Of a DNA stretch of 64,000 bases, positions 2,079 to 51,580 are shown piece by piece. Within the stretch, counting starts at the first letter, position 1; every line of letters begins with the position of its first letter. The notes below the pieces were generated by a model. That model did not search any database and was not told the DNA's origin. It was given only the letters and a program-made list of their open reading frames with translations. Both the position numbers and the translations under genes were made by a program. The DNA is from Ignavibacteriales bacterium (GTDB taxonomy: Bacteria; Bacteroidota; Ignavibacteria; UBA10030): NCBI GenBank assembly GCA_026390595.1, contig JAPLFQ010000020.1, positions 313,763 to 377,762 on the forward strand. Direction: 5' to 3'.

Positions 2079-3038
2079 TCAGATTTTCCAGAGAAAATCC
2101 TTGTTCTTCAGAAAAAACCTGACTTGTTGCACCGTCAAGGCAGATTTCCCACGCAATGCCTCCGCTGAATTGAATGCGTTGTGTGGAGTGAGGATGACGT
2201 TTGGAAAGGCGAGCAGCCGATTGACTTGTGAGGTCAGAGGTGAGGTGGTTTTCCCGGGATTGCGCAGAGCAGCACCGAGCAACCCTTCATCCTCGAACAC
2301 ATCCAGCCCAAGCCCGGCGATGCTCGCGTCAGCGAGGAGTCGCTCCACATCTCCCAGTGGGGACAATTCACCCCGGGCGATATTGATGAAGATGCTCCCT
2401 TTCGGAGCTCGGCTCAGCAGCTCGTAATTGAAATACCCCCTGTTTTCTTCCGTCAGATTCATTGCGCAGATGATGACGTCTCCCCAGCGGATTCCCTCTT
2501 CTCTTGAAACGTACTCTACATCGGACTTGTCCGGTACGATGTCGACCCCCTTGACGATGAACCCAAGCCCTTTCGCCACTCTCACAATTTCGCTGCCAAT
2601 GCGCCCAACTCCGACGACGAGGACGTTCTTGCCTGCGCACTCAGATCCCGTGAGACCCTCGCGATTAAATACCGGGAATTGGCGCATCTGTTGCGGGAGT
2701 TTTCTCAAGAGCGCCATGGCCAGCATCACCGCATGTTCTGCCACAGCACGCGTAGCATACTCTTCCAGGAAACCCAGCGGCAGCCGGTGTTGGATTTGCG
2801 ACGAGTACGTGATGAGATGGTCGTACCCCGTGCTCCGGCTGAGGACCCCGTCGAGGTGGTCGGTCCACTCCAACGGAACGGAAGACTGAGTCCGGATACT
2901 GATCAATCTGGCAGGGGGATTTCGATGACCGGCCTCGGCGATGGTTTCGGGAGCAAAACCGTACGTGAACTCGTCACCCAGCAGCGCCTTGAGCGTATCT
3001 GCTTCGTCTTCAAAAGCCTCGTAGAAAAAAATCTGCAT
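2079..3038 (-). CDS. D-isomer-specific 2-hydroxyacid dehydrogenase
   Basis: A 319-residue NAD-dependent dehydrogenase of the D-2-hydroxyacid family, which interconverts 2-oxo acids and D-2-hydroxy acids. It has the Rossmann motif 'GVGRIG' (143-148) and the catalytic Arg222 ('ARGE'), Glu249 ('FED') and His286 ('TPHN'). I start it at the ATG at 3038 because the longer frame to 3128 would overlap the upstream aldehyde dehydrogenase and adds no conserved residues. It lies 74 bp after that gene on the same strand, so the two are likely cotranscribed and may act on related carbonyl intermediates. The substrate is not determinable; phosphoglycerate, glyoxylate and D-lactate dehydrogenases share this architecture. 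Confidence 0.85.
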   Translation of the reverse strand: MQIFFYEAFEDEADTLKALLGDEFTYGFAPETIAEAGHRNPPARLISIRTQSSVPLEWTDHLDGVLSRSTGYDHLITYSSQIQHRLPLGFLEEYATRAVAEHAVMLAMALLRKLPQQMRQFPVFNREGLTGSECAGKNVLVVGVGRIGSEIVRVAKGLGFIVKGVDIVPDKSDVEYVSREEGIRWGDVIICAMNLTEENRGYFNYELLSRAPKGSIFINIARGELSPLGDVERLLADASIAGLGLDVFEDEGLLGAALRNPGKTTSPLTSQVNRLLAFPNVILTPHNAFNSAEALRGKSALTVQQVRFFLKNKDFLWKI

Positions 3039-43571: not shown

Positions 43572-44816
43572 ATGAAGGATGAACTATCAGCGCATCCGCT
43601 GAACGCTATTGCGGAATCATACGTGAAACTCGTCCTCGCAGTCGGCGGGCACTATCCCGATTACGTCGACGCCTACTTCGGACCAGCCGCGTGGCGGGAA
43701 GAGATAACAGCACACGTCCCTCCACTCAACGACATCCGCTCTTCCGCTCACAGTGTCCTCCAGGATATCGAACGCACCCCGGTCGCACAGGAGGAAATTG
43801 TGCTGCTCCGTCGCCAGTACTTGACACGGCAGCTCCACGCACTTCTCGCCCGGGTCGAGATGCTTCAGGGACGCGTGTTCACCTTCGACGAAGAAGCCCT
43901 GGCACTCTACGACGCTGAGCCACCACACTATCCAGAAGAGCACTTCCGAACTGTTCTGTCGAGTCTCGATGGAGTGATTCCGGGGAAGGGTTCAATCGCG
44001 GAACGCTATGAACACTACCGCGGTGATTTCATCATCCCGCTGAAATTGTTGCACCGGGTTTTTCAGACGGCGATCAGCGAATGCCGGGATCGGACACGCC
44101 GCATGATCGACTTGCCGGCAGACGAGCGATTCACTCTCGAGTACGTGAACAACAAACCGTGGAGCGGGTACAACTGGTTCAAAGGGGGGAGCGGCAGCCT
44201 CATACAGATCAATACCGATCTGCCGATCTACATCGATCGCGCTGTCGATCTCGCCGCGCACGAAGGTTATCCCGGTCACCACGTCTACAACAGCATGCTG
44301 GAATCTCTCCTCGCTCGCGCCCGGGGCTGGGTCGAGTTTATGGTCTACGCGCTCTTCAGCCCTCAATCGTTGATCGCAGAGGGTACCGCCAATTTCGGCA
44401 TCGAGGTCGCATTTCCCGGCACGCAACGGATCGAATTCGAACGCGATGTGCTCTTCCCCATTGCCGGACTGGATGGAAGCCGGGCAGACGAGTACTATTC
44501 CATTCACCGGCTGACCGGCGTTCTCAGCTATGCACACAATGAAGCGGCGCGGTCCTACCTCGACGGCACGATGAATCGAGAGCAGGCTGAAGAATGGCTC
44601 GTGATGTACGCGCTGATGGCCCCCGAGCGGGCGAAACAGCGTGTCCGGTTCATTGATGCATACCGGAGTTATGTGATCAACTACAACCTCGGTCAGGATC
44701 TCGTGCGGAAGTACATCGAATCGCGGGGCGGCACAGCTGAAGATCCCACCCGACGATGGGACGAATTCAGGCAATTGATTTCTTCACCGCGCCTCCCTTC
44801 CGGACTCCAAACGTAA
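43572..44816 (+). CDS. DUF885 family putative metalloprotease
   Basis: A 414-residue protein with the DUF885 signature 'HEGYPGHH' in the middle, which forms a gluzincin-like zinc site, plus 'IAEGTANFG' downstream with the third ligand. No signal peptide, so it is likely cytosolic. DUF885 proteins are thought to be carboxypeptidase-like; substrate unknown. It is shorter than exported DUF885 proteins (about 550-600 residues). Confidence 0.85.
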   Translation: MKDELSAHPLNAIAESYVKLVLAVGGHYPDYVDAYFGPAAWREEITAHVPPLNDIRSSAHSVLQDIERTPVAQEEIVLLRRQYLTRQLHALLARVEMLQGRVFTFDEEALALYDAEPPHYPEEHFRTVLSSLDGVIPGKGSIAERYEHYRGDFIIPLKLLHRVFQTAISECRDRTRRMIDLPADERFTLEYVNNKPWSGYNWFKGGSGSLIQINTDLPIYIDRAVDLAAHEGYPGHHVYNSMLESLLARARGWVEFMVYALFSPQSLIAEGTANFGIEVAFPGTQRIEFERDVLFPIAGLDGSRADEYYSIHRLTGVLSYAHNEAARSYLDGTMNREQAEEWLVMYALMAPERAKQRVRFIDAYRSYVINYNLGQDLVRKYIESRGGTAEDPTRRWDEFRQLISSPRLPSGLQT

Positions 44817-44834
44817 CTCAATACGGACAACACT

Positions 44835-45971
44835 ATGGCACGCTTCAAGCTCACGATCGAATACGAAGGCACCCGCTACAGCGGGTGGCAGATTCAGAAA
44901 AACGCCCGCACCGTGCAGGGTGAACTCACGTCTGCCTGCGGGACTGTGCTGAACACGACGAGCTTCGAATTGTACGGCGCCGGACGGACAGATGCCGGCG
45001 TGCATGCGCTGCGGCAGGTCGCCCATCTCGAGGCAACGACCATGCTCGCTCCTGAGATCCTTCGCCGCAAGATCAACGACGAACTGCCGGCCGATATCAA
45101 CATCCTCGAGGTCGACAAAGCGTCCCCACAGTTCCATGCCCGGCACGATGCGGTGTCGCGAAGTTACCTCTACCAGATCAGCCGACGCAGAACAGCGTTT
45201 GGCAAGAAGTACGTATGGTGGATCAAAGATCAACTGGACGTCAACCGGATGCGATCGGCGCTGAAACTGTTCACAGGCATGAGGGATTTTCGCTCCTTCA
45301 CGGCCGACGATCCGGACGAAAAATCCACCAAGGTGCACATCGAGCAGATTGATATCCGCGAGCATGGGGATTTGATTCTCATTCGCTTCATCGGGTCGCA
45401 TTTCCTCTGGAAAATGGTCCGGCAGGTGGTGGGCGACGGTCGATTCAAGAGCAATCTCGTGAACAGGACAAGGCGCATCCTGATCACCCTCATCGTCGTC
45501 CTCGGTTGCATGGGTTGCGACCAGGCAACGAAGACAATCGCGAGCCGCACGCTCGCCCCCAACACACCGGTCACACTCGTCAATCATATCTTCCATCTCG
45601 AGTATACTGAGAACAGCGGCGCGATGATGGGGGTTGGCACCGACCTCTCTGCCCAAACACGGTTCTGGCTCTTCATAGTTTTCACGGCGTGTGCTCTCTC
45701 GGCCATACTTGCATTCACACTGCTCGACAAGACATTGACCGCCACCGCCATGGTGTCTCTTTCTCTGATTCTCGGCGGCGGGTTGGGCAATCTTTTGGAC
45801 CGGGTGTTCAAGGGAGGTATCGTTGTCGATTTCATGATCATCACACTTGGGCCGCTGAAAACGGCCATTTTCAACTTCGCCGACCTCTCAATCCTGACCG
45901 GTGTCGCGGTCCTGGCATGGTCACAGATGCTCGCCTTTTCACGTTCCGCTCGTGCCGGAAGCGGAAGTTGA
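44835..45971 (+). CDS. TruA-LspA chimera: truncated tRNA pseudouridine synthase fused to lipoprotein signal peptidase
   Basis: One 378-residue frame holds two unrelated enzymes. Residues 1-200 are TruA with its catalytic Asp53 ('GRTDAGVHAL') up to 'FLWKMVRQVVG', where the family's last ~45-60 residues should follow. Instead, from about 205, the frame is a complete LspA: Asp229 in 'CDQATK', catalytic Asp332 ('VVDF') and Asp350 ('FNFADLSI'), with four membrane helices. LspA cleaves prolipoprotein signals, of which this window has many. A GTG at 45459 (codon 209) could start LspA by itself (170 residues). A deletion that fused neighbouring truA and lspA, or a misassembly, would produce this. TruA activity is doubtful; LspA should be intact. 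Confidence 0.85.
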   Translation: MARFKLTIEYEGTRYSGWQIQKNARTVQGELTSACGTVLNTTSFELYGAGRTDAGVHALRQVAHLEATTMLAPEILRRKINDELPADINILEVDKASPQFHARHDAVSRSYLYQISRRRTAFGKKYVWWIKDQLDVNRMRSALKLFTGMRDFRSFTADDPDEKSTKVHIEQIDIREHGDLILIRFIGSHFLWKMVRQVVGDGRFKSNLVNRTRRILITLIVVLGCMGCDQATKTIASRTLAPNTPVTLVNHIFHLEYTENSGAMMGVGTDLSAQTRFWLFIVFTACALSAILAFTLLDKTLTATAMVSLSLILGGGLGNLLDRVFKGGIVVDFMIITLGPLKTAIFNFADLSILTGVAVLAWSQMLAFSRSARAGSGS

Positions 45972-46460: not shown

Positions 46461-48272
<1,812 letters not shown>

Positions 48273-49897: not shown

Positions 49898-51580
49898 ATT
49901 GTATTTTTCATCGCAGAGAGCTGCCCGCTTCCGAGGATTCTATGAGCAGGCGGGCGCTGAGTTCGCCACGGCCCGCCATGCGGTCTGGCGGAGAGAATCG
50001 CAGCGTGATGGGCGCTCTCCTCTGCGGAGCTCACCGTTCTCTGCTTACCCCGACGTCCTGAGCGAGGGCAGTGAGTCGAAGGATTGTCGGGGCGTCTCTG
50101 CGTTGGGAACCAGAAACGTCAATCCACAAGATTTCTTGTTAGACATGGCGCTAGCAACCGCACGATCCTGGAGTCCTTCTCCAAGGTTTCTCCGTCTTCG
50201 GCAATCTCGGTTTTCACGTCGGGCATCAGCTACCGACTTTCCCGAATTCGTGATCTTCGCCCCTGTTCGCATGAGCAGCGAGCGATGTCTCCGTCAGTCC
50301 ATTCCGGTGGAAGATCGCGATCTCCGAAGCTCGCGTGCAAGAGCAGATCCCGCCGGGACAAGAGATCCGGATCCGTCCTCCCTTTCGCTGCTTCAGTTTG
50401 GAAAACCCGAACACTTCGCGCAGTGTCTGCAGATGACACAAAACGTGAGAGATAATTTCCCGCTTCTCCTCCTTTACAAATCCCTTTCGCGCACTTACAG
50501 CCCACCGTAGCATACGCAGGCAGGCTGCTGTCGATTTGCTTCATCACCCTTGCGCAGACCCGGTCAAACAGTCGCGAAGCCGAGGCATCGCTGTTGGCCA
50601 TGCTGCAGACAAGTTGTCGCTGACCGTTTCAGTTCTCTCCACCTCTGCAACGGTAGTGCCGCATGCCGTCACAGGTTCATGCCCCGCTATGCGTTCGAAG
50701 GAATTGCAGATCGGAGAAAACGAACGCACTGTATCCTGCTCGCTCGGCGGAACTGGATCGCGCGCACACTTGATGTTGGACCAGGGATTCTGAAGTGTCT
50801 GCATCACCCTCGTGATGTTCCCATTGTTTAGAAATGACCTGTGCAGTTTCTCAAACGCCTCGCCGATGATCAGTGCCTTGAAGAGCGTTTGCGTCCATCC
50901 CTGTCGCTGATCCAAAATCTCATTTATGACAACGAAGGCCGAAGTGCTCTCACTTCCTATTTTGTTTTCGGAATTTGCACAGGCCAGAGGGGTTCGAAAC
51001 AACAACGATCTTGGCTTCTCCACCGCTTGGAATGCAGGCGATGAAAGAAGAGGTGAGCAACCGATACGTGGGAACTTCGAACGCGCCAATCGCGTTGAAT
51101 CCGCCATCGGCGACGAAATGCCTCATGCTTGTTTTCCGAAATGATTTCGACCTTACTCGTTGCTCCTCACACCAACAGAAGCCGAGTGCAGACACTTCAA
51201 CATGTGTTCGGCACTTCGCGAATGGTGGCTCCGCAAACTGCGACCGACGTCGGTCGTTTATCAGCCGCACAAATGTTCATCTTCGTGTCGGACATCTGAG
51301 AGATCAGAGAAAACCGATGACAACGAATTTGCGCACTCATCATGTTCATCATCAATCGTCTCAATGAATTGCATGAACCAAAGTGCAATGTTGAAAGAGG
51401 CGCGCGGAGAAACCAATATGACTTGCGCGATGTTCTTCATTTGCATGCAAAGGCTGCGAGTCTGCAATCTACGCCGATCGAGCGGATTGGGCTTCGGCGC
51501 ATTGGACGGCAAGCGACCACGAGGTTGTTAGACTCACGACCAGCAGTCCAGAAGCGACAAAAACGTCGTGTGACGAAATC

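Follow-up and report, generated by a model that had tools for sequence, protein, structure and literature searches.

A truncated truA gene joined in frame to a complete lspA gene in an Ignavibacteriales bacterium, probably by deletion within an accessory gene pair

The stretch of DNA analysed here (64,000 nucleotides, referred to as the window) lies on a 470-kb contig of an Ignavibacteria-like member of the Bacteroidota, the assembly of which comprises 4.77 Mb in 36 contigs. Within it, most of a truA gene, for tRNA pseudouridine 38–40 synthase, runs without interruption into an lspA gene, for prolipoprotein signal peptidase II. The fused frame, its parts and its two neighbours are as follows.

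43572–44816, + strand: upstream neighbour, a 414-aa frame, syntenic in genus members
44835–45971, + strand: fused open reading frame, 378 codons with an ATG start and zero internal stops
44835–45434, + strand: TruA part, residues 1–200; ca. 64 further residues at the C-terminus of the ancestor are absent or in another frame
45435–45458, + strand: junction, 8 codons (DGRFKSNL), delimited from the sequence and from comparison with sister TruA tails
45459–45971, + strand: LspA part, complete at 170 aa, residues 209–378, beginning with V209 (GTG 45459)
46461–48272, + strand: downstream neighbour, 603 aa, syntenic and intact

We take the upstream neighbour, provisionally, to be DUF885-like, and the downstream neighbour is presumably a dihydroxy-acid dehydratase-like protein.

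Residues 3–200 of the fused frame match the TruA profile TIGR00071 (E 1.8e-51, profile positions 2–190 of 228), and residues 216–370 match the LspA profile TIGR00077 above its cut-off (E 1e-24, positions 10–160 of 164). The Pfam models agree: the match to PF01416 (TruA) extends to position 63 of 108, while that to PF01252 (LspA) covers positions 2–139 of 142, so the LspA domain is complete. An earlier note made from the sequence alone had described the frame in the same terms, as a TruA lacking its C-terminus fused to a whole LspA. It had placed the end of TruA after the motif MVRQVVG, and the homology does break off at G200 of that motif (45434). The catalytic aspartates of both enzymes, which it listed as retained, are all present – D53 of TruA in GRTDAGVH (44991–44993), and D322 and D350 of LspA (fused-frame numbering) in GNLLDR and FNFAD, which correspond to the NxxDR and FNxAD motifs. 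Y111 and R196 (in MVR) of TruA are also present, residues that are invariant or 99% conserved across homologues.

The first 200 residues align throughout with bacterial TruA (E. coli 1dj0 and 2nqp, T. thermophilus 1vs3), with which they share GRTDAGVH, Y111 and the arginine of MVR. Unlike these solved proteins and the intact sisters, the fusion has no TAPxxGLxL segment, its TruA part stopping short of the last helices and strand. The second half matches known LspA (6ryo, 5dir, 9emz) over the whole domain, including both catalytic aspartates, but unlike them carries an N-terminal extension of 208 residues, mostly derived from TruA.

Separate copies of the two genes were found in sister genomes, where the earlier note had advised looking. 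At the syntenic position in three of these (G002, G003 and G004) there is a full truA of 264 codons followed by lspA, and the truA stop overlaps the lspA start by 4 nt (ATGA, within ...CAATGA... or ...CGATGA...); in G004, lspA starts at nucleotide 792 of truA. The two halves of the fusion are 83–86% and 54–65% identical to these adjacent genes, so on this comparison the fused frame is more than a chance coincidence. The GTG at 45459, which is in frame, aligns with the ATG start of a separate 170-codon lspA in G001–G004, and the LspA lengths are equal. Within the GTGA at this point the TGA that once ended truA is still present, though no longer in frame. When the junction is read in the old truA frame, it gives T-V-D-S-R-A-I-S-stop, which is similar to the short tail, variable in sequence, of TruA in the sisters; it is probably a remnant of the 3' end of truA that is now out of frame.

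In alignment with G002–G004, the window is short of 167–170 bp, from TruA codon ~201 to ~257. Because the ends of both truA and lspA are recognisable, the loss would have been internal, judging from the sequence and the sister tails. A loss of 170 bp leaves a remainder of 2 when divided by 3, and truA and lspA are read in different frames, so the truA frame enters that of lspA and the truA stop is bypassed. About one in three random deletions at this junction would join the frames. There may have been a 4-nt microhomology (GGCG) at the deletion.

The same truA is also disrupted in another genus member, G005 (L130, G005:C71 1093–1760; L013). There it is internally deleted after codon 176, with GGGAA at the junction and a resulting shift of frame, and the accessory lspA has gone completely. 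This genome is, however, a MAG in fragments (the contig has 4,887 bases), and its deletions could be artefacts. From these sequences the locus appears to be broken in two of the six species of the genus, with G001 not judgeable on account of a gap of Ns. A candidate truA frameshift in G001 (L131, G001:C177, ~2953–3006) was rejected, as the run of Ns with duplicated flanks is an assembly gap. No second TruA-LspA fusion was found in the 97 other genomes of the order (98 in total) or among 122 examined loci, and no paper describing one was found. A shared TruA/LspA pathway as the reason for the fusion was set aside for want of a second case.

The host genome encodes a second copy of each gene. 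The second truA, the existence of which the earlier note had raised, is intact on contig C33 (243 aa, complete to KGLFLEEITY) and is followed by genes that we take, from their translations, to be trpD-like and trpC-like. The second lspA is intact on contig C15 (222 aa), presumably within an ileS-dksA-lspA-rluD-like order, also read from translations. With these two intact genes elsewhere, the truA-lspA pair of the window is accessory. The window type of truA is patchily distributed, with strong matches (E <= 1e-40) in 57 of the order's 98 genomes; the C33 type is present in nearly all family members. The accessory LspA is ca. 29% identical to the other LspA of the genome over the matched part.

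Two further features of the lspA copies were observed. The accessory LspA paralogues have C-x-G-C-D-Q where the first hydrophobic segment ends (window 45459–45530 and sisters), a lipobox-like stretch that is absent from the other LspA of the genome (LLDQ). The lspA on C15 (G000:C15, L126, 2327–4004) lies directly before the gene for an rluD-like pseudouridine synthase; lspA therefore adjoins a pseudouridine synthase gene twice in the host genome, with synthases of different families.

The part of TruA that was lost includes the TAPPSGLFL motif (TAPxxGLfL) and the last strand of the fold. In this segment A231, P232, G235, L236 and L238 are each 97% conserved among 116 homologues, which were picked by similarity to the window type of truA and come from Ignavibacteria, Bacteroidales, Acidobacteria and others; P232, G235, L236 and L238 are invariant within a 20-sequence set. 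A model of an intact sister TruA (mean pLDDT 92.7) agrees with the E. coli and Thermus structures along nearly its whole length, and in it the lost part corresponds to the end of the helix at 192–207, two further helices and the strand at 236–242. Having lost residues that hardly vary, along with some of its fold, the TruA half of the fusion is most likely inactive, its pseudouridylation lost, as judged from conservation and the model. A structure prediction of the fusion itself was not used, as its LspA part was of low confidence (mean pLDDT 68.9, with only four LspA rows), and a mixed TruA/LspA alignment was discarded because TruA tails were misaligned onto LspA.

Pairwise dN/dS over TruA codons 1–200 is about 0.04–0.05 (~0.05 against G004), rough values with dS saturated. 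The TruA part has 8 private residue changes in the window and 7 in G004; LspA has 14 and 8, one of them the start codon, which is no clear difference. An attempt to date the deletion by relative-rate and dN/dS tests was abandoned, as the truA part showed no difference and dS was saturated. Since the substitution rate of the truA part is not raised, either the deletion happened recently, or it is an artefact, or this part remains under constraint.

The explanation that best accounts for these observations, with a probability of about 0.78, is a lineage-specific deletion in a dispensable accessory truA-lspA pair – early decay of the locus rather than formation of a bifunctional enzyme. The earlier note had proposed a deletion joining the neighbouring genes and knew of no enzymatic link between the two activities; the comparison with syntenic sisters supports the deletion, and no such link is needed. 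In the ancestor, the stop of the accessory truA would have overlapped the start of the accessory lspA by 4 nt, and the loss of ~167–170 bp would have allowed the truA frame to run past its own stop into lspA. Short overlaps of this kind couple unidirectional gene pairs by termination-reinitiation, with 4 nt the most usual length (PMC10666635), and the sister truA/lspA overlap is likewise 4 nt. Unlike such coupled pairs, the pair in the window became one continuous frame by deletion, and ribosomes starting at 44835 would read through, a single polypeptide replacing the coupling. Translation of the mRNA would then yield a single chain, in which a four-helix membrane peptidase bears, on its cytosolic N-terminus, a TruA remnant that is itself cytosolic. 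The LspA half may be active or redundant; at most a working LspA would be left. Intact truA and lspA genes elsewhere would explain why the cell tolerates the fusion. If this reading is right, the locus is a clean example of a deletion within a gene converting a 4-nt overlapping pair to a single frame, and a caution that domain fusions need not signal functional links. It also indicates that this Ignavibacteria-like group has a second, patchily retained type of truA and a second lspA.

Some LspA may be initiated at the internal GTG 45459. A variant of the deletion reading makes this the main source of LspA, with the truA remnant little more than a leader and the fused product minor. The GTG is exactly at the ancestral start, where all the sisters begin lspA, and AAGAG lies ~9 nt upstream. 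However, as a ribosome site this is weaker than the Shine-Dalgarno-like GGAG of the sisters, and the truA frame runs through, so reinitiation after a truA stop – the process by which short overlaps couple such pairs (PMC10666635) – is impossible. The variant is doubtful.

An assembly or binning error is improbable. Under this alternative ~170 bp were dropped from the consensus at 45432–45460 and the real locus has a normal truA-lspA overlap, which fits the occurrence of the fusion in one genome only and the low divergence of the truA part, as expected for an intact gene. Against it are the length of the contig and the small number of contigs in the assembly. A comparison of the open frames of G002 and G003 with the whole window gave ca. 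50 syntenic genes, of which none but truA is truncated comparably, save one decayed ligase-like gene, and no other large gap was seen. In a search of the rest of the assembly the missing TruA tail was absent, with only the diverged copy on C33 matching, weakly. Clean synteny elsewhere and the absence of the tail argue against a generally poor assembly, and no collapsible repeat is evident beyond the putative GGCG.

TruA is cytosolic, and the N-terminus of LspA is expected to be so as well. This compatible topology, the intact frame across the junction, the retained catalytic Asp, Tyr and Arg, and the strong purifying signal over residues 1–200 would suit a functional fusion, in which the TruA remnant serves LspA as an RNA-binding or regulatory domain tethered to the membrane, or in which TruA remains active despite its truncation. 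This is very unlikely: the TAPPSGLFL segment, which hardly varies, has gone together with some of the fold, bacterial TruA acts as a dimer (PMC3983220), the fusion is absent from the other genomes of the order, and a literature search turned up no description of one. Also very unlikely is an expressed protein in which a truncated TruA tethers tRNA or another RNA to the membrane signal peptidase, with its TruA part still under selection.

The decayed ligase-like gene is a second degenerate gene close to the fusion. At 50084–50830 (- strand) the window contains scrambled, stop-bearing remnants of an AMP-binding/acyl-CoA-ligase-like gene, the syntenic counterpart of which in G003 is an open frame of 394 codons.
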